Made by a program: the position numbers and the translations under genes. Shown in pieces: positions 13,465 through 27,609 of a DNA stretch of 56,791 nucleotides. Every line of letters starts with the position of its first letter. Position 1 is the first letter of the stretch. The stretch is from an uncultured Eggerthellaceae bacterium. Lineage in GTDB: Bacteria; Actinomycetota; Coriobacteriia; Coriobacteriales; Eggerthellaceae. The notes beneath the pieces were generated by a model. It was not told the DNA's origin and searched no databases. It saw only the letters and a list, made by a program, of their open reading frames with translations. The stretch covers positions 1 to 56,791 of the forward strand of contig CATKXW010000013.1 of NCBI GenBank assembly GCA_949840905.1, written 5' to 3'.

Positions 13465-14130
13465 ATGGCTGCATTGCAAGCGGTGCTGTTCGATGGCGAT
13501 GGCACGCTCATCGATACGGAGGGCATCATCTTGACCTCCATGCGCTACACGGTGAACGAGCTGCATGGCATGGAGGCGAGCGACGAGGAGCTGATGGCGG
13601 GGGTGGGCACGCCGCTGCCCGCGCAGATGCTCCATTTCGCCGGGGGCGATGAGGCGCTGGCCGAGCAGCTGGTAGATGAGTATCGTGCCCACAACGACCG
13701 CATCCACGATGAGGCGATAGGCGCTTTCGTCGACACGCGCGAGGCGTTGGAGCTATTGCGCGATGCCGGTTATCGCATGGGGGTCGTGACCTCGAAGCGC
13801 CATGAGATGGCCGCACGGGGGCTGGAGCTGTCCGGTATCGACGAGTTCTTCGAGGTGCTGGTGGCTCCTGATGATTGGCCGGAGCACAAGCCGGCACCGG
13901 GACCCATCCGCTATGCATGCGAGCTGATGGGGGTCGATCCGCAGGCCAGCATGTACGTGGGCGACAGCCCCTACGACATCCAGGCGGGCAACGCCGCCGG
14001 CTGTGCCACCGTGGCTGCGCTGTGGGGGATGTTCCCCAAGGCGGTGTTGGCGGCCGAGCATCCCACCATGATGCGCTCGTCGCTTCTGGAGCTCGCTCGT
14101 GAGCTGACGGAGGGGACCCTCGCCCCATGA
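13465..14130 (+). CDS. HAD-superfamily phosphatase (phosphoglycolate-phosphatase-like)
   Basis: 221 residues. HAD motif I is FDGDGTLIDTE at residue 9, motif II Thr is in VVTSKR, the motif III Lys is in EHKPAP and motif IV is GDSPYD. An alpha-helical cap lies between motifs I and II, as in Gph/PpaX/beta-phosphoglucomutase relatives. Substrate unknown. ATG 13465 puts motif I at the usual distance from the N-terminus; ATG 13426 with an upstream GGAG only two bases away is an alternative. The next gene starts inside its stop codon (ATGA), so translation is coupled to the MerR regulator. Confidence 0.82.
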   Translation: MAALQAVLFDGDGTLIDTEGIILTSMRYTVNELHGMEASDEELMAGVGTPLPAQMLHFAGGDEALAEQLVDEYRAHNDRIHDEAIGAFVDTREALELLRDAGYRMGVVTSKRHEMAARGLELSGIDEFFEVLVAPDDWPEHKPAPGPIRYACELMGVDPQASMYVGDSPYDIQAGNAAGCATVAALWGMFPKAVLAAEHPTMMRSSLLELARELTEGTLAP

Positions 14131-14957
14131 AGAGCAGCGAGCTGGCGGCCATCGCAGGAGTGAGCGTGCGCACGTTGCGCCATTATCATGCCCTCGGCCT
14201 GCTGCCCGAGCCGCCTCGTCACTCGAACGGCTATCGCGACTATTCCGTTGGCGATCTGGCCACGGTGCTGCACATACGGCAGCTGACCTCGCTGGGCTTT
14301 CCGCTGAGCGAGATAGGCGTCATGATGGCCGCTGACGAAGGGGGAAAGGGATCCACCACCGAGGAAGATGCGCTGCGGCAGCTCGACGAGGAGCTGGAAA
14401 GCCAGATAGCGCGCCTTCAAGAACAACGACGGACGATCGCTCAGCTGCGCGAGGAACGCCTCGACCCTGCGCTCCCTCCTCGGTTCGCTCGGGTGATAAA
14501 GCGCTTCTATGGCGAGGAGGCGACCGTCGAGGCAGCCTCCGGAGCCGCCCTCGACTACGATCGCGCAGCTCTGATGGTGGCTGCTCGCTTCTACGATGAA
14601 GAGGCTCTCGCCGAGTTGGAGCGCTTCGCCGACAAGGCCGAGGAACTGGGTATCGTGGAAGAGCTGAGGACGGTGGAGCGCCGCATCGACGACCTGGCCG
14701 CAGACGCTTCCGAGGAGGAGCGGGCGGCGCTGACCGCCGATGTGCTGGAGCTGCTCCTTCCCACCGTCGAATGCTTCGATATTCGGAACTGGTCGGAGGA
14801 GGGAGACGGTTCTGCTGCTCGCGTCCTCGAGTCGCTGCTCGACGGTTCGCTCAACGCTGCTCAACGCGATGTGGAAGAGCGGATCGAGAAGGTCATCGTC
14901 GAGCGCATCCGTGAAGGAGCCGTGGAGCCTCATGGCTGTTCCGAAGACGCCCGTTGA
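14127..14957 (+). CDS. MerR-family transcriptional regulator
   Basis: 276 residues. N-terminal MerR winged helix (AAIAGVSVRTLRHYHALGLLPEPPR, then NGYRDYSVGDL), a dimerisation coiled coil around residues 85-115, and an acidic, mostly helical C-terminal part with no metal-binding cysteine cluster, suggesting a multidrug- or small-molecule-type sensor rather than a metal sensor. It overlaps the HAD gene by four bases and precedes an MFS gene, whose promoter has the MerR architecture. Control of that MFS gene is therefore very likely. Confidence 0.88.
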   Translation: MKSSELAAIAGVSVRTLRHYHALGLLPEPPRHSNGYRDYSVGDLATVLHIRQLTSLGFPLSEIGVMMAADEGGKGSTTEEDALRQLDEELESQIARLQEQRRTIAQLREERLDPALPPRFARVIKRFYGEEATVEAASGAALDYDRAALMVAARFYDEEALAELERFADKAEELGIVEELRTVERRIDDLAADASEEERAALTADVLELLLPTVECFDIRNWSEEGDGSAARVLESLLDGSLNAAQRDVEERIEKVIVERIREGAVEPHGCSEDAR

Positions 14958-15023: not shown

Positions 15024-16274
15024 ATGACGACCAGTCCGAAGAAGCTGCCTACGACCACCATCCGCTTCGTCGCGTCCAGTGCGCTATCGCTGCTGGGAAA
15101 CTCCATGGCGGCCGTGGTGATACCGTTGATCCTGTTGGCCCGCACTGGCGACGCGCTGGCAGCCGGCACCTTAGCGCTGGTGTGCGCGGTGCCGCAGATG
15201 CTGGTGGGGCTTTTGGGCGGCGCGCTGCTCGATGTAGCGAACCGCCGCAACGTCTCCATCGTCTCCGACCTCATCTCGGCGGCCAGCGTGGCGCTCTTGC
15301 CTGTGGTGGACATCCTGTGGGGGCTCGACTTCGGGTGGTTCGTGGTGCTGGGACTTCTGGGAGCCATCGGCGACATCCCAGGCATGACCGCGCGCGATAC
15401 GCTGCTGCCTGCGGTGGTGGAGCGCGACGGTATCGACCTGCAGCGCTTCTTGGGCGTCAATCAGTCGCTCGAATCCCTCATCACCATCGTCGGCCCTGCC
15501 TTGGCGGCGGTGCTCATCGGCTTCGGCACCGATAGCATGGCGCTGTGGGCGACCGCGGCTCTCTCGTGCGCTGCGGCCATCGTCACGCTCACCTTGCCGC
15601 GCTCCATCGGGAAGGTGGGACAGGCTGCGACCGAAGAGAGGTCGAGCGGGGCGAGCACGTCGAAGGGGGTCGTCGCGGCGGCGCGGGCCTCGCTCGCCGA
15701 TGGGGTGCGCGTGCTGTTCAAAGACGACGCGCTGTTGCGCACCGCCATGCTGCTCTCGTTCGGCATCATCATGGTGATGGGCAGCTTCCAAGGTCTCGTG
15801 CTGCCGTTCCATTTCACTCAGCAGGGAGACCCAGCGGGCCTGGGCTATGTGCTCTCGTTCATGTCGGCCGGTCTGCTCGCGGGCTCGCTCGTCTACACCG
15901 CGCTCGCCCCGCGGCTGACGAAGCGCACCTGGTACGTGCTGTCGCTTCTGGGCATGACCGCTGCTGTGGTGGTCATGGGGCTGTTGCCGCCGTACCCTGT
16001 CATGCTGGCCGTTGCGCTGCTCCTCGGCTTCAGCGCCGGTCCCGCCTCGGCCTTGCTCGGTTTCTTCGCGTTCGATCGCATTCCCGCTGCCCACCGCGGT
16101 AGCGCCCTTGGCACTCAGAATGCGCTGGTGCTGGTGGCTGCCCCAGTGGCGGTGTTCCTCACCTCTGCTGTCGTGGAAGCGGGCGGCGTCGCGATCGGTG
16201 CCCTCATCCTCGCTGTTTGCTGGATCCTCATCACCATCTGGGCCCTCTTCACGAAGACCATGCGAAAGCTATGA
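15024..16274 (+). CDS. MFS efflux transporter
   Basis: 416 residues, about 12 membrane segments. Start after GGAAGGAA. Early helices contain SALSLLGNSMAAVVIPLILL and the loop RRNVSIVSDL, as in MFS_3/enterobactin-exporter and macrolide-efflux relatives. Cytoplasmic central loop at about 195-230. Positioned directly behind a MerR-type regulator and its characteristic promoter, so it is probably an inducible drug or metabolite exporter. Substrate unknown. Confidence 0.87.
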   Translation: MTTSPKKLPTTTIRFVASSALSLLGNSMAAVVIPLILLARTGDALAAGTLALVCAVPQMLVGLLGGALLDVANRRNVSIVSDLISAASVALLPVVDILWGLDFGWFVVLGLLGAIGDIPGMTARDTLLPAVVERDGIDLQRFLGVNQSLESLITIVGPALAAVLIGFGTDSMALWATAALSCAAAIVTLTLPRSIGKVGQAATEERSSGASTSKGVVAAARASLADGVRVLFKDDALLRTAMLLSFGIIMVMGSFQGLVLPFHFTQQGDPAGLGYVLSFMSAGLLAGSLVYTALAPRLTKRTWYVLSLLGMTAAVVVMGLLPPYPVMLAVALLLGFSAGPASALLGFFAFDRIPAAHRGSALGTQNALVLVAAPVAVFLTSAVVEAGGVAIGALILAVCWILITIWALFTKTMRKL

Positions 16275-16360: not shown

Positions 16361-17017
16361 TTAAGCGGAGAAGAGCTTGCGCAGTTCAGCCTTGAGCTGT
16401 TTACGGGCGAGCAGGAGCAGGGTGAGGGCGAGCAGCGCGGCGGCGGCGGTGCTGGCGTAGATGAGCCAGGGCCACGGCGCTGCGTTCAGCGGCAGCAGCA
16501 GAAGGGGCGCCAGGCCCAGGAGCAGACTGTAGAGCAGGTACTTCGCGTAATCGCGCACGAACGCCTCGCGGAAGGCCACCACCAGAGCGGTGTTCGTGAG
16601 CAGGCCGCCCAGGCAGATGCCGGGAATGACCAGGGATGCCACCAGGCCGCTGCCGGCGGCGAGCCACCACAGCACCGCCATGGCCAACAGCACGAGGAAG
16701 TAGCGCTCGGCGATGCGCACGAAGTCGGGCGAGTGGGCCATCACGTTGCGCAGAAAGCCGTAGCCTACCACCAGGGCCACCATCATGAGCGCAACCGGCC
16801 ATGGTCGCAGCGGCACGAGCCACGCCGCTATCAGCAGGGCTACCGCCGCAGCTCCCGTGACGGCGGCCAGCACGCGCCTCGCTGCCATGGCCGGGGCCTC
16901 GGCGGTGCTGACGGGGAAGGCTGCCGGCGTCGCCTCGCCCTCAAGGACCGACCCGCACAGCGGACAGCGGTCGAGGTCGCCCGAAAGGTCGATGCTGCAG
17001 GGGTCACAGTGTCGCAT
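16361..17017 (-). CDS. Zinc-ribbon membrane protein (DUF6320-like)
   Basis: 218 residues. The N-terminus MRHCDPCSIDLSGDLDRC continues to CPLCGSVL: two Cys-x2-Cys pairs, a zinc ribbon. After a short linker there are about six membrane segments (residues 60-205) and a basic tail. ATG 17017 has a perfect GGAGGAGG site; the 14-base overlap with the acyltransferase gene means coupled translation. I associate it with DUF6320, which I recall next to alcohol-acetyltransferase-like genes; no function is established. Last gene of a three-gene operon with an esterase and an acyltransferase. Confidence 0.75.
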   Translation of the reverse strand: MRHCDPCSIDLSGDLDRCPLCGSVLEGEATPAAFPVSTAEAPAMAARRVLAAVTGAAAVALLIAAWLVPLRPWPVALMMVALVVGYGFLRNVMAHSPDFVRIAERYFLVLLAMAVLWWLAAGSGLVASLVIPGICLGGLLTNTALVVAFREAFVRDYAKYLLYSLLLGLAPLLLLPLNAAPWPWLIYASTAAAALLALTLLLLARKQLKAELRKLFSA

Positions 17018-18341
17018 GATCCTCCTCCTTCCGCCCTTTCGCACCTAGCTGCTTGAGGCGCTCGTCGAACTCCGCTTCGCGGAGCCGTCGGTCCACCTCG
17101 GTCGCATCGTGGTTCAGGTCGATGCGCCCGGCGATGCCCTGGGCGCTGAACAGGCGGCACAGTTCGCGCACCACATCGAGGCGCTTGAACACCGTGGATA
17201 TGCCCACGCACAGGTCGTTGCCGAAGGTGCATGCGATGAAGTTCAATCCGGTGGTGGCCGTCAGCACGCTCACGCCCGACACATGAGATGCCACCGATGC
17301 AGGCAGGTCGATGCGCCCCAGGCTAGAGACGGTGGTGGTCACATCCCGCTCGGCGATGCGCGCGGCCGCGTCTAGCGCGAGGTCCTTCAAGAACAACGGA
17401 GCCAGTCGCAGCCCCACGTTCTTCTCCAGGCCTATCATGCGGTTCATGCGGCCTTCCATGGCGCTGGCCGTGCACTTGCTGGCGATCTGCTGCTGCACGT
17501 TGGCGGCGATGGCCTCCAACGGCTCGTCAACAGAGCCTGGCAGATAGCTGACGAAAGCCAGTCCGAAGAAGTTGCGCAAGGTGGCGGAATCGAAGAACTG
17601 TCGCAGGTCCACCGGCACGTCCAGACGGATGGGCCGCGTGCGGTCGGCAGGGTTCATGCCCGCACGGATGGCGCAGATGACCGCCGCGATGATGAGCGAG
17701 GTGACGCTGACCCCTAGGCTCTTCGCCCAAGCATGCACTTCGTTGGCGGGCAGGTGGTATTCGAGGAAGGTGGGCAGCGCCGCATCGCGCGGGCCGCTGA
17801 GCCGATAGGGCCGCTCGGAGGGCGTGGCTGCGCTCTTGCTGGGGTCGTAGTGCTGCCCGAAGCTGTCCTCTGCCTGGCGTTCGCGCTCTTCGTCGAAGCC
17901 GTGGTCTGCCTCCTCGAACGGCGTCGCGTAGCGCTCCTCGCCGTAGAAGCCCATCAGCGTGCGGAAGAAGCGCAGCGACCCGCGCCCGTCCGAGATCATG
18001 TGAGACACTTCCAGGCTGATGCGCTCAGCGAACCACACCACGCGGAACAGCACGCTGTGAGGCCCGGTATGCAGCCCGAAGCACACGGGCAGCGTTTCGG
18101 GCTGCACCCGCACAGCGGTCTTGGCTGGTTCCAGATAATGCCAGAACAAGCCGCTGCGCAGGCATACGTTGAAGCTCGGGTACCGCTCGATGGTGCGCTC
18201 GAGGGCCCGCTGCAGGGCGTTTTCGTCCACGGCGTCGGTCATGATGGCCGAGAACCGGAACACCGTCTGTCGCGAACTGGCGGCTTCGGCGGAATAGAAC
18301 TTCCCGATGTTGTCTAGTCGGTACCAATCAGCGTGAGCCAT
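17004..18341 (-). CDS. Condensation/alcohol-acetyltransferase-like acyltransferase
   Basis: 445 residues of chloramphenicol-acetyltransferase-like two-domain fold, as in NRPS condensation domains, PapA and fungal alcohol acetyltransferases. The active-site signature HxxxDG is intact as HMISDG (about residue 150), followed by GRGSLRFF. The C-terminal half has RNFFGLAFVSY and a floor-loop-like GLNFIACTFG. It probably transfers an acyl group between a thioester and an alcohol or amine. There is no carrier protein or adenylation domain nearby, so it is unlikely to be part of an NRPS. It overlaps the esterase gene upstream by 28 bases and the membrane-protein gene downstream by 14. Confidence 0.8.
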   Translation of the reverse strand: MAHADWYRLDNIGKFYSAEAASSRQTVFRFSAIMTDAVDENALQRALERTIERYPSFNVCLRSGLFWHYLEPAKTAVRVQPETLPVCFGLHTGPHSVLFRVVWFAERISLEVSHMISDGRGSLRFFRTLMGFYGEERYATPFEEADHGFDEERERQAEDSFGQHYDPSKSAATPSERPYRLSGPRDAALPTFLEYHLPANEVHAWAKSLGVSVTSLIIAAVICAIRAGMNPADRTRPIRLDVPVDLRQFFDSATLRNFFGLAFVSYLPGSVDEPLEAIAANVQQQIASKCTASAMEGRMNRMIGLEKNVGLRLAPLFLKDLALDAAARIAERDVTTTVSSLGRIDLPASVASHVSGVSVLTATTGLNFIACTFGNDLCVGISTVFKRLDVVRELCRLFSAQGIAGRIDLNHDATEVDRRLREAEFDERLKQLGAKGRKEEDHATL

Positions 18342-19333
18342 GCCGGCTTCCCACCTTGCTTCAGCTCGTCTCCGTCGAGAAAGTGCTTCATGATGCGGTA
18401 GGTGTCGCGCACCAGTCCCATGATGGAAGGATAGAGGAAGTAGCCGTGCACCCCGTCGAGCACGCGGTAACATGCCACCTCGTTGCCGTCGGCCTCCAGG
18501 CGCGCGGCATAGGTCTCGCCCTCGTCGCGCAAGGGGCAGTACTCGGCGCTCATCACCAGCGTGCGCGGCTGATCGCTCAGGTCGGGCTCTAGCAGCGGGG
18601 CGAAGCGCGGATTCGTGTAGTCGGCCAGATCGCGCAAGTACAGGTTGATGTAGCCCTCGATCTCGCGGCGGGTGAGGATGTAGTCCTCGCCGTTCTCGCG
18701 CACCGAATCGAAGATGGTCATCTCGCTATGGTCGTTGTAGGTGAGCGGGTATAGCAGCATCTGGGTGCGCGGAAGGAACTCGCCGCGGTCGCGGGCCAGA
18801 AGCGATACCACGGCCGCTAGGTTGCCGCCGGCCGAGTCGCCGAACAGCACGATATGCTCAGGATCGACATCGGCCAGCAGCTCGCCGGCGAACAGCTGAC
18901 GGGCCACCTCGTAGCAATCTTCGGCCGCGGCCGGGAACGGATGCTCCGGCGAGCGCCGATAGTCCACCGACACCACGCGTCGTTCCAGCTTCAAGGCGGT
19001 GCGCATGCAGGCATCGGTGTAGAAGTCCACATCGCCATTGGCCCAGCCGCCGCCATGGAAGAACAGGATGGTACCGCGGAAATCCTCGTCCACATGCAGT
19101 CCTGTCTTGAACGAGAACTCGATGTCGAGGGGCGTGAACACCCGCAGCGGTATCTCGTAGCCATCCGGCGCTGTGGCCTTCATATCGTCGATGCGGCAGC
19201 GAGGACTGGCCAAGGTGAGCTTGGCGCTGGCGTCTTCGGCTATGCGCTGTGCTTGGTAGGTCTTCTCGATGTTGTCGGAGCGCAGCCGCGTGATGGTCTT
19301 CACGGCGGCCAGCGCGGCCTTGTTGAGGGGCAC
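18314..19333 (-). CDS. Alpha/beta hydrolase, hormone-sensitive-lipase family esterase
   Basis: 339 residues. Oxyanion motif HGGGW (about residue 106), nucleophile elbow GDSAGG, and a C-terminal His in DGVHGYFLY complete the HSL-type (family IV) catalytic triad. The GTG start has AAGGAGGTG six bases upstream; a longer reading frame lacks such a site. Cytoplasmic, no signal peptide. First gene of the operon with the acyltransferase and zinc-ribbon membrane protein, and divergent from oleate hydratase, so a lipid or acyl-ester substrate is plausible but unproven. Confidence 0.88.
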   Translation of the reverse strand: MPLNKAALAAVKTITRLRSDNIEKTYQAQRIAEDASAKLTLASPRCRIDDMKATAPDGYEIPLRVFTPLDIEFSFKTGLHVDEDFRGTILFFHGGGWANGDVDFYTDACMRTALKLERRVVSVDYRRSPEHPFPAAAEDCYEVARQLFAGELLADVDPEHIVLFGDSAGGNLAAVVSLLARDRGEFLPRTQMLLYPLTYNDHSEMTIFDSVRENGEDYILTRREIEGYINLYLRDLADYTNPRFAPLLEPDLSDQPRTLVMSAEYCPLRDEGETYAARLEADGNEVACYRVLDGVHGYFLYPSIMGLVRDTYRIMKHFLDGDELKQGGKPAWLTLIGTD

Positions 19334-19603
19334 GGTGCACCTCCTTCGGTCGTTTCGTCTGCTCTCATGGTAGGCGAGGAATGGCCGTGTGGCCCAGAGC
19401 GTTGCGCGTCCGTTACGGGGCGGGTCGAGAAAGCGCGCTCTACGGAGAGAGAAAAATGAGGGGTGCGCCTCCATGGCAGCCGCGTAACGCTTCCTTTACG
19501 GGGAGATGACGGTGGGCAGGCAGGGCGTTCGGTGCCGGGGGCGCGGTGGCATCATCGAAGCTACGAAAGGGAAGGTCTTGTTCTCGTTGAAAGGAAGAGC
19601 TCC

Positions 19604-21523
19604 ATGTATTATTCCAGCGGCAATTACGAAGCGTTCGCCCATCCTCTGAAACCGGAGGGTGTCGAGAACAAGTCGGCTTACATCATAGGGGCAGGTCTGG
19701 CCGGTCTTACGGCTGCCTGCTATCTGGTGCGCGACGGGCGCATGCCCGGCGAGCGCATTCACATCCTGGAGCGCGACCCTCGCGCTGGCGGCGGTTGCGA
19801 TGGCTGGCACTATGCCGCCCTCGGCTACACCATGCGCGGTGGCCGCGAGATGGACGACCATTTCGAGGTGATGTGGGACCTTTATCGTGACATCCCCTCT
19901 ATCGAAGACCCCAGCGTCAGCGTGCTCGACCACTACTATTGGCTCAACAAGCGCGACCCCAACTACTCGCTGTGCCGCGTCACGGTCGACCGCGGCAAGG
20001 ACGCCCATACCGACGATCGCTTCGACCTGTCCGACAAGGGCTGCCTTGAGCTCATGAGCCTGTTCTTCACGCCGGAAGAGGAGCTGCAGGACAAGTTGAT
20101 CACCGACTACTTCTCCGACGAGGTGCTCGATTCCAACTTCTGGCTGTACTGGCGCACCATGTTCGCGTTCGAGAACTGGCATTCGGCTCTTGAGATGAAG
20201 CGCTATATCACCCGCTTCATCCACCACGTGGGCGGCCTACCGGACTTCAGCGCCCTGCGCTTCACCCGCTATAACCAGTACGAGTCGATGATCCTGCCTT
20301 TGGTGAACTACTTGAAGGACCACGGTGTCGACTTCCAGTTCAACACCCATGTGACCGATGTGCGCTTCTCCTGCGACAGCGCCAAAGACGACGATCGCAA
20401 GCTGGCTACCGAGATCCGCTACACGTTGGAGGACGGTCCTGCGGCCATCGACGCTGCTGTGGGCGTGCAGACAGCTGACGCGGCCACCATGCCGGCGCCG
20501 GAGGAGCAGACCATCCAGCTGACCGAGAACGACCTAGTGTTCATCACGCCCGGAAGCCTGGTAGCCCATTCCTCCTTCGGTAGCCAAGACGAGCCGGCGC
20601 GCTATGCGCCCGAGCTTACCCCTGGCGACGGTTGGGACCTGTGGAAGCGCATCGCTGCGCAAGACCCCTCGTTCGGGCATCCGGAGAAGTTCTGCGGCGA
20701 CCCGTCGAAGAGCAACTGGGAGAGCGCCACGGTGACTACGCTCGATGAGCGCATCCTGCCCTACATCAAGGCCATCTGCAAGCGCGATCCGCTCTCGGGC
20801 GGTGTGGTGACGGGCGGCATCGTGTCGGTGAAGGATTCCAGCTGGCTGCTCAGCTGGACCATCAACCGCCAGCCTCAGTTCCGCGCTCAGCCCGAAGGTC
20901 AGGTGTGCGTGTGGCTCTACGGCCTGTTCACCGACGTGCCGGGCGACTACGTGAAGAAGCCCATGCGCGATTGCACTGGCCGCGAGATATGCGAGGAATG
21001 GCTCTACCATCTGGGCGTGCCCGAGGAGCAGATAGCCGATCTGGCAGCGAACAGCGCCAACACCGTGCCCTGCATGATGCCCTACATCACAGCGTTCTTC
21101 ATGCCGCGCGCGATCGGCGACCGACCCGACGTGGTACCGGCCGGCGCGGTGAACTTCGCCTTCATCGGCCAGTTCGCCGAGACGCCGCGCGACACCATCT
21201 TCACCACGGAATACTCCATGCGCACCGGCATGGAGGCGGTCTACACGCTGCTCGACATCGATCGGGGCGTGCCGGAGGTGTGGGGGAGCTGCTTCGACCT
21301 GCGCGTGCTGCTGAACGCGGCGGTGATGGTGCGCGACGGCAAGCCCGCCACCGACATGAACATGAGCCTGATCGAGAAGCTCTTGGTGAGCCGTGGGTTG
21401 AAGGAGATAGAGGATACCGACATCTACGGCCTGCTCAAGGGCTTCGGCGTCATCCCCACCACTGAGGAGAACGCGGATGTGCCGGTGCCTGCTACCGGCG
21501 CGGTCTGGCCGGGCATCCACTGA
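19604..21523 (+). CDS. ohyA: Oleate hydratase
   Basis: FAD enzyme of the myosin-cross-reactive-antigen family; adds water to the cis-9 double bond of oleic and linoleic acid, giving 10-hydroxy fatty acids. 639 residues, normal length. N-terminal FAD motif GAGLAGLTAACYL (residue 29 on), the family motif RGGREM with the catalytic Glu82, and the RYNQYES segment in the substrate domain. AAAGGAAG precedes ATG 19604; upstream in-frame codons are not protein-like. In gut anaerobes it detoxifies host and dietary unsaturated fatty acids. It is followed 58 bp later by a surface protein gene on the same strand. Confidence 0.95.
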   Translation: MYYSSGNYEAFAHPLKPEGVENKSAYIIGAGLAGLTAACYLVRDGRMPGERIHILERDPRAGGGCDGWHYAALGYTMRGGREMDDHFEVMWDLYRDIPSIEDPSVSVLDHYYWLNKRDPNYSLCRVTVDRGKDAHTDDRFDLSDKGCLELMSLFFTPEEELQDKLITDYFSDEVLDSNFWLYWRTMFAFENWHSALEMKRYITRFIHHVGGLPDFSALRFTRYNQYESMILPLVNYLKDHGVDFQFNTHVTDVRFSCDSAKDDDRKLATEIRYTLEDGPAAIDAAVGVQTADAATMPAPEEQTIQLTENDLVFITPGSLVAHSSFGSQDEPARYAPELTPGDGWDLWKRIAAQDPSFGHPEKFCGDPSKSNWESATVTTLDERILPYIKAICKRDPLSGGVVTGGIVSVKDSSWLLSWTINRQPQFRAQPEGQVCVWLYGLFTDVPGDYVKKPMRDCTGREICEEWLYHLGVPEEQIADLAANSANTVPCMMPYITAFFMPRAIGDRPDVVPAGAVNFAFIGQFAETPRDTIFTTEYSMRTGMEAVYTLLDIDRGVPEVWGSCFDLRVLLNAAVMVRDGKPATDMNMSLIEKLLVSRGLKEIEDTDIYGLLKGFGVIPTTEENADVPVPATGAVWPGIH

Positions 21524-21581
21524 TATCCCTCGGTGCGGCCGTGCGGGCTGCACCGGTCCTGAGAGAACGAAGGAGACCATC

Positions 21582-22880
21582 ATGAGCACAACGATGAAGA
21601 AGATCGGCATCGCGCTGCTCGCGATCGTGTTCGCGCTGGGTCTGACGGTGCCGGCGCTCTCGTTCGCCGAGCCTGGCGGACGGCCGACCATGACCGGCAT
21701 GGCCGGTGCGAACGAACAAGCGGCCATCGACGCGGCTACGAGCGGTGCTGTCGCGGCGGAAGCGGTGGAAGACGCTGCGACGAGCGATGTGCCTGCGATC
21801 AGCGAAGAGGCGACCGAGATACCTGTCGAAGAGCCTGATGGCGCCACGGTCGAAGAGCCCGTCGAGGCCGTGGTGGACGAGAACGCCACCGGGGATGCCA
21901 CCGTCGATGAGGTCGTGACCGCGCCGGCCGGTGACTGCGTCGTCACCATCCAATACCTCGAGTATACCGAGGACATCGAGGGCAAGCCTGTGGACGAGGG
22001 CGGCCGCGTTATCCTCGGCACGCGCGAGCTGACCGGCCTGAACGAGGGCGATCAGATCCATGCATGGGACTACGTGGTCGACATTCCCGGGTACTTCTTC
22101 TTCGATGGCTGGCCGCTGAACATGACCGTGTCGGCCGATCCGTCCCAGAACGTCCTGAAGCTCATCTACATGAAGATCCGCACCGGCGAGTACACGGTGA
22201 ACTACTACCTGATGACCGGTGCCGATCTGACGGCCGATAACTGGGGCGACGCCCTCGATACCGACAAGGTGACCTTCTCTAAGATCGGCTCCGAGCAGTT
22301 CGATGACGCGCAGCTGAATAGCCTGGTGCAGGGCGATGCCTACGAGTATCAGGTCGATGGTCTCTATGTGATAGACACCTATCCGTCCGAGATACTCGTC
22401 GACGAGCAGCCCGATGATAACGTCATCAACGTGCTCTACACCAACGCGGTGGCCTACGGCCCGAGCGACCTGCCCGTTCCCGATGGGGTCGTCCCTGACG
22501 GAGGCGACGGTGCGGGCGGCGACGCTAACGTGACCCTGCCCCCCAACGACACCACTCTCGACAAGGACGAGATAGAGGCCATCCTCCCTGACGATCCCGA
22601 GGTCGTCGGCGATCTTATCGGCACGGGTGGTGAGGAGGTGACCATCACCGATGCGATGCTGGAGAATCCTGTGAACAAAGAGCAGGCCATCCAGACGGTG
22701 AAGGCCTATCAGACCGGCCTGCAGCAGGGCGCTGGGCTTTCCCAGACCGGGGATGGCATCGTGTGGCTGGTGGTAGCGCTGGCGGTGGTGATCGTAGGGG
22801 CGGGCATCGCCATCGGCATCCTGCTGAGGCGTCGCCAGCTCACGCCGGCTCCGATCCCTGAAAAGACCAAGGACGTCTAG
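21582..22880 (+). CDS. Cell-wall-anchored surface protein with LSQTG sorting signal
   Basis: 432 residues. Signal peptide 1-29 (KK, hydrophobic core, cleavage after SFA). An acidic Ala/Glu/Val-rich low-complexity stretch follows (40-120), then two beta-rich units with VTIQYLEY and YTVNYYLMTG, resembling MucBP/Flg_new-type adhesin modules, then an acidic spacer. The C-terminus is a canonical sorting signal: LSQTG (22737-22751), hydrophobic helix, RRR and a short tail. Ser replaces the usual Pro of LPxTG. AAGGAG lies seven bases before the ATG. Probable sortase substrate, surface location; ligand unknown. Confidence 0.87.
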   Translation: MSTTMKKIGIALLAIVFALGLTVPALSFAEPGGRPTMTGMAGANEQAAIDAATSGAVAAEAVEDAATSDVPAISEEATEIPVEEPDGATVEEPVEAVVDENATGDATVDEVVTAPAGDCVVTIQYLEYTEDIEGKPVDEGGRVILGTRELTGLNEGDQIHAWDYVVDIPGYFFFDGWPLNMTVSADPSQNVLKLIYMKIRTGEYTVNYYLMTGADLTADNWGDALDTDKVTFSKIGSEQFDDAQLNSLVQGDAYEYQVDGLYVIDTYPSEILVDEQPDDNVINVLYTNAVAYGPSDLPVPDGVVPDGGDGAGGDANVTLPPNDTTLDKDEIEAILPDDPEVVGDLIGTGGEEVTITDAMLENPVNKEQAIQTVKAYQTGLQQGAGLSQTGDGIVWLVVALAVVIVGAGIAIGILLRRRQLTPAPIPEKTKDV

Positions 22881-24136: not shown

Positions 24137-24292
24137 TCGGCGCGGAAGCGCTCGCGCTCTCCTTCTTCGAGAACAGCTTGTTTACAGTTCTTCCCGTTCG
24201 GGGCGGAACCCTCCTTCGTTGCGCTTCAATAAGGAGCATGACGAAAGTCCGCGCGCTCCATGCGCGCCAAGAGATGCTCAGGAGGGATCGTC

Positions 24293-26890
24293 ATGGCTCA
24301 GCAGATCACCCGACGCAGCTTCGTGCAGGCTGCATCCGTCGCCTCGCTCGGCGCTCTGGGGGCCGGCTGCCTCGGTAGCGCGGCTCTTGGCAGCGTGCCT
24401 GCGGCTAAGGCGCTCGCGGAAGAGGCGGGGAGCGAAGGCGCCTGGGTGCGCACCACCTGTTCGCCCAACTGCACCGGTGCGTGCGGTACCAAGGCCTTCG
24501 TGCACGATGGTCAGATCAAGATGATCGACCCCGCCGCCGACTACCCCTATACGCACTACAACCCTCGTGGTTGTTTGAAGGGCCTTTCCATCAACACGCT
24601 GGTGCACGGCCCTGATCGCTTGACCAAATGCCTGGTGCGCGATGAGGCTTCCGGCGAGATGCGGGAAGCCAGTTGGGACGAGGCTCTCACCGTGGCCGCC
24701 CAGAAGCTGAACGCTACAGCCGAGCGCTACGGGGCCGACTCCATCGCCGTCGAATGGCAAGTGCAGGGTACCGGCCATATCCAGAAAGGTTCGCTGATAC
24801 GTCTGACCAATATGATGGGCTGGTCGGCCATCGGCTGCTACGAGCTCAACGGCGACCTTCCCATGTTCTGGCCCGAGACCTTCGGTTGTCAGAGCGAAGA
24901 GCTAGAGAGCTATTGTTGGGAAGATTCCCGCTATACCATGATATTCGGCAGCAACGTGATGGTCACCCGTCTGCCCGATGCCCACTTCCTGAACTATTCG
25001 CGGGAGGCCGGCGGCAAGGTGGTGACCTTCGACCCGAACTACTGTCCCACCGCTGAGAAGTCCGACGAATGGGTGCAGCTGGCACCCGACACCGACGGCG
25101 CGTTCGCCTTGGCCGCAGCGAAGCACATCATCGACAACGATCTGTACGACCGCGAATTCATGGCCAACTTCACCGACCAGCCCATCCTCATCGACACCGC
25201 CACGGGCAAGCGCATCCTGGCTGACGCGGTGGTGGGCCTTTCGGCAGTGCCCGCACCGGATTATCGCACCAGCTACGTCATGCTGCATGGTGGCACGCCC
25301 TTCGCGGTGGATCCGGAGCATGTGGGCATCACCGCCGATGCCGACCTGGAAGCGGAAGTCGACCTCCCGCTGAAGGATGGCACCACGGCACACGCTCGCA
25401 CCGGCTTCTCGCTCTTGCGCGAGAGCTTGGAACCCTACACGCTGGAATACGCCGAAGAGGTCACGGGCATCCCGGCCGACACCATCGCGCGCATCGCTCG
25501 GGAATGCGCCACCATCAAGCCCATGCACATCATATTCGGCGGCGCAGGTGAGCAGTGGTATCACGGTGATCTGAAGGGCCGCGCCTTGGCCCTTCTGGCA
25601 TGCCTTACCGGCAACATCGGCCAGCTAGGTGGCGGCATCTCCACCTATGTTGGACAGTACAAGACGCGCTTCAACACAGCCAGCTGGTTCCTGCCGCCGA
25701 AGCTGAACAAGAAGAGCTGCGCTTTCCAATACGCGATCACCGGACGCACCCCTGAGATGACCGCCCCGTTCCCCAAAGAGGGCATCCGCGGGCTGGTCAT
25801 CGGCTGGGGCAACCCCTTCGAGCAGCACGACGTGGCCGATTGGCTGCGGCAGGCGCGCGAATCGGGCGAGATAGAGACCGTCATCACCTTCGAGTTCCAG
25901 CACACCAAGACGGTAGACTACTCCGATGTGGTGTTCCCCTGCTCGTCGTGGTATGAGAAGCTGGAGCTGACCACCACGCCTTTGCACCCATGGGTGCAGC
26001 TGCAACAGCGCATGGTCGAGCCACCAGGAGAGGCGGCCGATGAGATATGGATATGCAAGGAGCTGGCGTGTCACCTGAACCCGGATCTGGCCGACCAGTG
26101 GCCCGAGTTCGATCGCGACCAGAGCCAAGAGGTGTCCGAGCAGGTATGCCGTCTGCTGCTGGAAAAGGGCGGCCCCACCATCGACCATCTCACCTTGGAG
26201 CAGCTGCGCGAGGGTCCCGGCAAGCTGGCCCACGCGAACCCGGGCGAGAAGCGCATCCCCTTCTGGGAGCAGGTCCACAACGGCGACCCGTTCCCGACCG
26301 TCTCGCGTCCGAACGCCTACGACGTCACAGCGAAGTTCGTGCGAAGCGGGCGCATCGAGTTCTATCGTGACGAGGACATCTTCCTCAGTCTCGACGAGCA
26401 GCTGCCTTGCTACAAGCCAGCTTTCGTCGACACTGAGTGGAAGGACGACCCCGACGGTCCCCAGAAGTATCCCTTCGCTTACATCACGCGCAACAGCGTG
26501 TTCCGCATCCATTCCACCTACGTGAACGACCCGCTCATGCTGGAGATGCAGGACGAGACGCCCAAGTGCTGGATGAACCCGGCAGACGCCGAACGGCTCG
26601 GTCTGGCATCGGGCGATCTGGTGGAGGTGTACAACAGCCGCGGTCAGGTGACAGCGGCGCTCGTCTGCGACCCTGGGATGCATACCGGTCAAGTGATATT
26701 CGACCAGGGCTGGTGGAGCGAGTATACCGACGGCGATAGCTACAACTCGCTCATCTATCCGTGGATAAACCCCACTAACGAGGTGTATTACGTATCGAGC
26801 GTATGGTCGCCGAACATGGCCTGGAACGAGACGGCGTGCAACGTTCGTCTGCTGCAGAAGGGCGGAGCGCTGAGGGAGGTCATGTCATGA
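24293..26890 (+). CDS. Molybdopterin oxidoreductase, catalytic subunit, Tat-exported, with NarG-like Asp ligand
   Basis: 865 residues of the DMSO-reductase family. Twin-arginine signal TRRSFVQ (Arg7-Arg8) with a hydrophobic stretch to about residue 42, so it acts outside the membrane. [4Fe-4S] ligands Cys56, 60, 64 and 94. In the molybdenum-ligand region CYELNGDLPMFWPETFG, Asp188 lines up with the ligand Asp of NarG (DWYCDLPPASPQTWG), indicating a type II enzyme. C-terminal cofactor domain has GDLVEVYNSRGQV. Start follows CAGGAGGGAT. The ferredoxin and anchor genes overlap it. Substrate unknown; Eggerthellaceae use many such enzymes as terminal reductases for host, dietary or drug compounds. 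Confidence 0.92.
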   Translation: MAQQITRRSFVQAASVASLGALGAGCLGSAALGSVPAAKALAEEAGSEGAWVRTTCSPNCTGACGTKAFVHDGQIKMIDPAADYPYTHYNPRGCLKGLSINTLVHGPDRLTKCLVRDEASGEMREASWDEALTVAAQKLNATAERYGADSIAVEWQVQGTGHIQKGSLIRLTNMMGWSAIGCYELNGDLPMFWPETFGCQSEELESYCWEDSRYTMIFGSNVMVTRLPDAHFLNYSREAGGKVVTFDPNYCPTAEKSDEWVQLAPDTDGAFALAAAKHIIDNDLYDREFMANFTDQPILIDTATGKRILADAVVGLSAVPAPDYRTSYVMLHGGTPFAVDPEHVGITADADLEAEVDLPLKDGTTAHARTGFSLLRESLEPYTLEYAEEVTGIPADTIARIARECATIKPMHIIFGGAGEQWYHGDLKGRALALLACLTGNIGQLGGGISTYVGQYKTRFNTASWFLPPKLNKKSCAFQYAITGRTPEMTAPFPKEGIRGLVIGWGNPFEQHDVADWLRQARESGEIETVITFEFQHTKTVDYSDVVFPCSSWYEKLELTTTPLHPWVQLQQRMVEPPGEAADEIWICKELACHLNPDLADQWPEFDRDQSQEVSEQVCRLLLEKGGPTIDHLTLEQLREGPGKLAHANPGEKRIPFWEQVHNGDPFPTVSRPNAYDVTAKFVRSGRIEFYRDEDIFLSLDEQLPCYKPAFVDTEWKDDPDGPQKYPFAYITRNSVFRIHSTYVNDPLMLEMQDETPKCWMNPADAERLGLASGDLVEVYNSRGQVTAALVCDPGMHTGQVIFDQGWWSEYTDGDSYNSLIYPWINPTNEVYYVSSVWSPNMAWNETACNVRLLQKGGALREVMS

Positions 26891-27609
26891 AGTACGGGAT
26901 GATCATAGATCTGGACCGTTGCATCGGCTGCCGCACCTGCGCGGTGGTGTGCAAGAACCACAACGCCGAGCCGGAGGGCATCTGGTGGAACCGCGTGTTC
27001 GCCAGCGGTGCGCCGAACTACGCGACGGCCGTGGCTGTGGACGGCGGGATGCGCAGCGAGTTTCTACCGGTGAGCTGCCAGCAGTGCGAGAACGCTCCTT
27101 GCGAGACGGCGTGTCCCACCGGAGCCACCTACACCGACGAGAACGGCGTGGTGCTGGTCGATTACGACAGCTGCATCGGGTGTCGCTATTGCATGGTGGC
27201 ATGCCCCTACAACGTTCGCCAGTTCAACTGGCAGAAGCCGCAGGGCATTCCCGCTACCGAGGGCACCTATAGTTACGGGTACCCCTTCGAGGTGCGTCAA
27301 GACGGCAAGCTGGTATATACCCCGGATCGGCCCGAGGGCGTGGTGGAGAAGTGCACCTTCTGCGTGCAGTACACCTCCGAAGGAGGGGACCCTGCTTGCT
27401 GCGTGGCCTGTCCGGCCAATGCGCGCATCTTCGGGGACATCGACGATCCCGATTCGGCGTACAGCCAGTATATGAAGGGCCTCGTCTCTCCGAAAGAGCC
27501 CTATACGCTGGGGGATGAATACCATACCGATCCGAAGGTGGTCTATATGCGGTCGTCGCGCAAGGCGGACGCTCGCGTGGGAAGCGAAGGCGAGGTGACC
27601 GAGCGATGA
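26887..27609 (+). CDS. Four-cluster ferredoxin subunit (DmsB/PsrB type)
   Basis: 240 residues carrying four Cys groups: CIGCRTCAVVC, CQQCENAPCETAC, CIGCRYCMVAC and the CTFC...CCVAC set. These coordinate four Fe-S clusters that wire electrons from the membrane anchor to the molybdenum subunit. No signal peptide; it would be exported with the Tat-tagged catalytic subunit. Translation is coupled through ATGA overlaps to the gene before and the gene after. Length and motif order are normal for DmsB/NrfC-like subunits. Confidence 0.93.
   Translation: MKYGMIIDLDRCIGCRTCAVVCKNHNAEPEGIWWNRVFASGAPNYATAVAVDGGMRSEFLPVSCQQCENAPCETACPTGATYTDENGVVLVDYDSCIGCRYCMVACPYNVRQFNWQKPQGIPATEGTYSYGYPFEVRQDGKLVYTPDRPEGVVEKCTFCVQYTSEGGDPACCVACPANARIFGDIDDPDSAYSQYMKGLVSPKEPYTLGDEYHTDPKVVYMRSSRKADARVGSEGEVTER

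Follow-up and report, generated by a model that had tools for sequence, protein, structure and literature searches.

An esterase, acyltransferase and DUF6320 gene set of Actinomycetota and Bacillota as a candidate membrane-docked acyl-ester module

Introduction

In yeast, sterols are acetylated by Atf2 for secretion and deacetylated by Say1 (PMC4076087). The genes described here resemble this pair in combining a predicted alcohol acyltransferase with a presumably opposing esterase of the Abhydrolase_3/Say1 type, both predicted to work at a membrane. The likeness is at family level on both halves: most of the esterase partners match Say1_Mug180 and some of the acyltransferases match AATase. The set differs from Atf2/Say1 in being bacterial, in forming one compact operon, in having a separate zinc-ribbon membrane partner and in occurring as fusions.

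Three further groups of described proteins are relevant. PapA5 and other PapA-type acyltransferases (PF16911, PDB 1q9j) share the fold and the HxxxDG motif, whereas the acyltransferase studied here has no polyketide synthase or carrier nearby and has a near-obligate DUF6320 partner. The closest solved fold is that of AzeD (PDB 8s6l), a stand-alone condensation-fold enzyme from Pseudomonas aeruginosa, which is only 14% identical and is titled a dehydratase. HSL-family esterases (LipP1, NF058653; EST2, 1qz3; chloramphenicol hydrolase, NF033149) carry the same catalytic motifs as the esterase. DUF6320 (PF19845) is a Pfam entry without a function, and a search of one paper library on it and related terms gave nothing specific. 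The window's membrane protein is a full member of this family by score; its partner and its role as an anchor are proposed here.

Results

The window is a 56,791-nucleotide stretch from an uncultured Eggerthellaceae bacterium with a genome of 1.98 Mb. Three genes are encoded consecutively on its minus strand: an esterase (EST, 339 aa, 18314..19333), an acyltransferase (ACT, 445 aa, ATG start, 17004..18341) and a DUF6320 protein (218 aa, ATG start, 16361..17017). ACT overlaps EST by 28 bases and the DUF6320 gene overlaps ACT by 14 bases. These coordinates and overlaps, together with the HMISDG motif and the two CxxC pairs, agreed exactly with the original prediction when the sequence was read again. 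EST starts at a GTG codon, just 5' of which, on the same strand, lies the Shine-Dalgarno-like sequence GAAGGAGG (19340..19347, containing AGGAGG); the esterases of relatives align at the same start. A promoter scan gave nothing above chance. Relatives were found with an alignment-based genome scan, a scan with a single protein query having returned nothing, and the closest relatives of ACT were in the Eggerthellaceae.

ACT belongs to the HxxxD condensation-fold superfamily by fold and motif, and its acyl-transfer activity is predicted. The window's protein matched PapA_C in Pfam (8.4e-9), as did 28 of 47 ACTs. Its HMISDG motif (residues 114-119; 17985..18002, minus strand) corresponds to HxxxDG, which was kept in 197 of 198 collected ACT sequences; the last one keeps HxxxD, giving 198/198 for the shorter motif. 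The AlphaFold model (pLDDT 90.4) has a two-lobed, CAT-like fold with HxxxD, and its best matches in the PDB were AzeD (Z 32.6, rmsd 2.9 over 374 residues) and PapA5 (Z 27.9), followed by many C domains at Z 23-26. AzeD is described as a dehydratase, so the fold by itself does not establish that a protein is an acyltransferase. Against the PapA5 model NF006787 the window's ACT scored 18.3 bits, far under the curated cut-off of 396. The AATase family (PF07247; Atf family) was not matched by the window's ACT; it was matched at 0.01 by 10 of 47 ACTs, and the ACT of locus L199 scored 22.5 bits against a cut-off of 22. The original prediction had noted that no NRPS or carrier gene was near. This was strengthened by searching the complete genome with Pfam PP-binding, which returned a single carrier (about 89 aa), encoded on a different contig. 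A role for ACT as an NRPS condensation domain or other carrier-dependent enzyme was rejected on this result. Given this single carrier, the acyl donor would be acyl-CoA or the housekeeping acyl-ACP. Five Bacilli genomes (G572, G620 and G658, with loci L168, L182 and L183; G545; G614) carried an additional ACT copy that had no DUF6320 gene next to it.

EST was assigned to the HSL/Abhydrolase_3 family (PF07859; 1.7e-63, 214.6 bits, over the cut-off). It carries an HGGGW oxyanion motif, a GDSAGG nucleophile elbow and a catalytic His296; Ser167 and His296 were invariant in 26 EST partners. Say1_Mug180 was matched by 21 of these 26 at 1e-5 or better and by none of eight unrelated bacterial HSL esterases at 1e-3, a small set of controls that had been cut to the matched region. 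The Pfam cut-off for Say1 (PF10340, 21 bits) was passed by the partners in L071 (69), L158 (50), L199 (50), L200 (42) and L171 (41). In every EST checked individually, Abhydrolase_3 outscored the Say1 family. The window's own EST fell below the Say1 cut-off (13.1 bits), so that the pair is said here to work like Atf2/Say1 and not to belong with it; the window's EST and ACT reach neither of the two Pfam cut-offs. The LipP1 model was matched to 1e-68, with the window's EST at 231 bits against a curated cut-off of 350, and the chloramphenicol hydrolase model was likewise below its cut-off (140 versus 500 bits).

The membrane protein matched DUF6320 at 1.6e-13 (51.3 bits against a gathering cut-off of 29.9). 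Its N-terminal ribbon (C4-x2-C7 ... C18-x2-C21; 16955..17008, minus strand) has four cysteines that were invariant in a 44-member alignment (44/44). In the AlphaFold2 model (pLDDT 89.5) the ribbon is followed by about six membrane-length helices, which make up the membrane domain (residues 40-203; 16409..16900, minus strand). From the charge distribution (positive-inside rule) the ribbon and both termini are predicted to be cytosolic. ACT and EST had no signal peptide by eye and would sit in the cytosol, on the same side as the ribbon. A fold search with the DUF6320 model gave no significant structural match, which shows nothing by itself. In one Adlercreutzia caecimuris/mucosicola clade (L050-L052) the ribbon is kept and the membrane part is shortened to about two helices. 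In L170, L188, L192 and L193 the DUF6320 protein is about 300 aa long and has additional residues separating the ribbon from the helices.

ACT and DUF6320 genes are linked far beyond chance, in genome samples that were even draws and in counts that ignore relatedness. In the window's family, 43 of 129 genomes had a strong match to ACT; 41 of these 43, and no other genomes, had one to DUF6320, and 40 of the 41 DUF6320 genes lay directly 3' of ACT. The two occurred together in 62 of 247 Bacilli genomes, with each alone in 2; in this class 62 of 64 DUF6320 genes were directly 3' of ACT, at a median gap of 18 bases. About 100 of 341 Clostridia genomes carried ACT. Of 59 loci read from Clostridia and plasmids, four of which had been chosen for their long reading frames, 58 had DUF6320 after ACT or fused to it. 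In Chloroflexota and Spirochaetota, the gene after ACT encodes a divergent protein that likewise joins a ribbon, with the four conserved cysteines, to helices. The ACT-DUF6320 pair thus recurs in about one in four of the Bacilli and Clostridia genomes sampled, and between about a quarter and a third of the genomes sampled from Clostridia, Bacilli and Eggerthellaceae carry the set.

Across the actinobacterial loci L031-L070 and L072, EST precedes ACT in 40 of 41, and the remaining locus is cut by a contig end. An EST homologue adjoined ACT or was fused with it in 13/56 Bacilli loci and 22/59 Clostridia and plasmid loci, against 0/975 among genes four or more positions away. EST is thus optional in Bacillota, being absent beside the pair in most loci. 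Where all three genes are present, their order is identical in Actinomycetota, Bacilli and Clostridia. The co-occurrence of the three families had been put forward as a check on the original prediction of a dedicated set able to make and hydrolyze an acyl ester, and that prediction is supported: the families co-occur across Actinomycetota and Bacillota. Loci without EST sometimes have another hydrolase adjoining the pair, namely a patatin (L095, L096, L098), a GDSL enzyme (L198) or a pectin-acetylesterase-like protein (L229 type). When the immediate neighbors at 63 loci positions (Bacillota and others) were scanned against Pfam, no one partner recurred; hydrolases and lipid genes appeared, each in separate lineages only. 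In L090 an Mbeg1-like gene lies two genes upstream of the pair.

A form of the set reported here for the first time is the fusion of ACT to the membrane part of DUF6320, with consistent loss of the ribbon. It was found in eight loci: L047, L048, L054 and L055, which belong to one Adlercreutzia clade, L042, L181 (Bacilli), and L201 and L202 (Clostridia). Pfam confirmed DUF6320 in 5/5 fusions tested. On a FastTree tree of 198 ACTs, which places long rows, L181 among them, with some uncertainty, the fusion needs five independent changes, all forced by starred branches. The ribbon was present in none of the eight fusions and in 182 of 183 separate DUF6320 proteins. Of these 182, an automatic CxxC...CxxC search found 179, L208 and L170 were added on reading, and L193 was included as very probable, its N-terminal part matching the model from position 1. 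Loss of the ribbon exactly when ACT is joined covalently to the helices is expected if the job of the ribbon is to hold ACT. It is therefore likely that the ribbon serves for docking and that DUF6320 is an anchor and not an exporter. The one separate protein without a ribbon (L254:6298-6840), whose gene has a start and a ribosome site of its own, counts against this reading. EST::ACT fusions were found in L171, L199 and L200 and represent two independent events; each is known from one genome, and for any one of them a sequencing error deleting the stop codon is possible.

Discussion

The trio is best read, with somewhat better than even confidence, as a membrane-docked module that forms and removes an acyl ester, comparable to the yeast Atf2/Say1 cycle. 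ACT would act in the cytosol and transfer an acyl group from acyl-CoA or the housekeeping acyl-ACP to the hydroxyl group of an alcohol that is hydrophobic or resides in the membrane. DUF6320 would keep ACT on the cytosolic side of the membrane, the cytosolic ribbon binding ACT and the helices anchoring it in the bilayer. EST, a cytosolic Say1-like esterase of the HSL family, would take the acyl group off again. ACT and EST could in this way run a cycle of acylation and deacylation, or swap acyl groups, on a substrate formed outside the module. The sequences themselves show the order and linkage of the genes, their recurrence, the fusions with their loss of the ribbon, and the catalytic motifs; from these we infer the docking role, the working side of each enzyme and the opposition of the two activities.

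A wider proposal, put forward tentatively, is that the set represents an undescribed and widespread acylation/deacylation cycle of gut bacteria, acting on steroids or other lipophilic alcohols of host, dietary or bacterial origin, with DUF6320 as a new class of zinc-ribbon anchor for HxxxD acyltransferases. Many of the genomes carrying the set are gut isolates or gut metagenomes. The loss of the ribbon on fusion yields a sharp and cheap prediction, namely that the four cysteines are the docking module, and the likeness to Say1/Atf2 points to assays that could reveal a new class of acyl esters from gut bacteria.

Of the other readings, remodeling of acylglycerols or glycolipids survives best, as a possible but not a favored explanation. 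It has the same docking anatomy as the acyl-ester module and differs in substrate and purpose: ACT would acylate diacylglycerol or a membrane glycolipid in the manner of a DGAT, and EST would be the matching lipase, tuning membrane or storage lipids. The HSL and DGAT-type folds are consistent with this, as is L197 (NZ_CP094683.1), a 52 kb Anaerotruncus colihominis VE303-02 plasmid on which EST, ACT and DUF6320 are followed by a diacylglycerol kinase gene. Patatin, GDPD, VTT/DedA and cyclopropane-synthase genes are adjacent in single lineages. However, no lipid gene recurs widely, the diacylglycerol kinase gene was present in only two of the collected loci, and WS_DGAT_C was matched once only, weakly.

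The original prediction had suggested that the membrane protein perhaps exports the ester made by ACT. This now appears unlikely. About six membrane helices would suit a transporter, and acetylated sterols are exported in yeast (PMC4076087), but the ribbon is gone exactly when ACT is fused, and a natural form of DUF6320 has about two helices. The ribbon-less fusions and this short form fit an anchoring or docking subunit better than a six-helix transporter.

It is similarly unlikely that ACT attaches acetyl or acyl groups to saccharides, oligosaccharides or plant glycosides and that EST takes them off. Genes for GH120 and a pectin-acetylesterase-like protein flank the pair in loci of the L226/L229/L233 type, GH43-CBM6 occurs in L101 and DUF2961 in the L207 type. 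Such sugar genes are confined to few lineages, and none was seen recurring beside the actinobacterial sets. The EST partners also match BD-FAE, but this family is matched equally by unrelated HSL esterases. A membrane anchor is better suited to a hydrophobic acceptor.

The divergent gene at 19604-21523 was identified as an oleate hydratase (NF010584, 886 bits), as had been predicted. The proposal built on it, that ACT esterifies 10-hydroxystearate formed by this neighbor, is improbable, since an oleate hydratase was not a neighbor in any other locus read and 21 of the 43 ACT genomes of the family had no strong match to one. The expected linkage was absent from all 80 named loci and from the first set of relatives, and the other genome of the same genus has its oleate hydratase on a different contig from the set; oleate hydratase was rejected as a part of the system for this lack of synteny. 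At the genome level the two did co-occur above chance in the family (22 of 43 ACT genomes versus 3 of 86 others, p = 4e-10, kinship ignored), for which genome size or relatedness may be the cause; a metabolic connection is possible, although roughly half of the ACT genomes have no oleate hydratase.

On the other side of the trio, the window encodes a MerR regulator (14127-14957) and an MFS efflux pump (15024-16274), homologues of which are near the trio in several Adlercreutzia loci. They were set aside as core parts and are treated as neighbors, because homologues within about 10 kb were found only in Adlercreutzia-type loci. Beyond the oleate hydratase, a secreted-looking protein (21477-22880) has a signal-like N-terminus and a C-terminal LSQTGD-helix-RRR tail resembling a sortase signal, and gave no Pfam match at the cut-off used. 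By eye only, the region at 24260-27609 appears to encode a molybdopterin oxidoreductase-like protein, the N-terminus of which is twin-arginine-like, and after it a subunit of the 4Fe-4S ferredoxin type.
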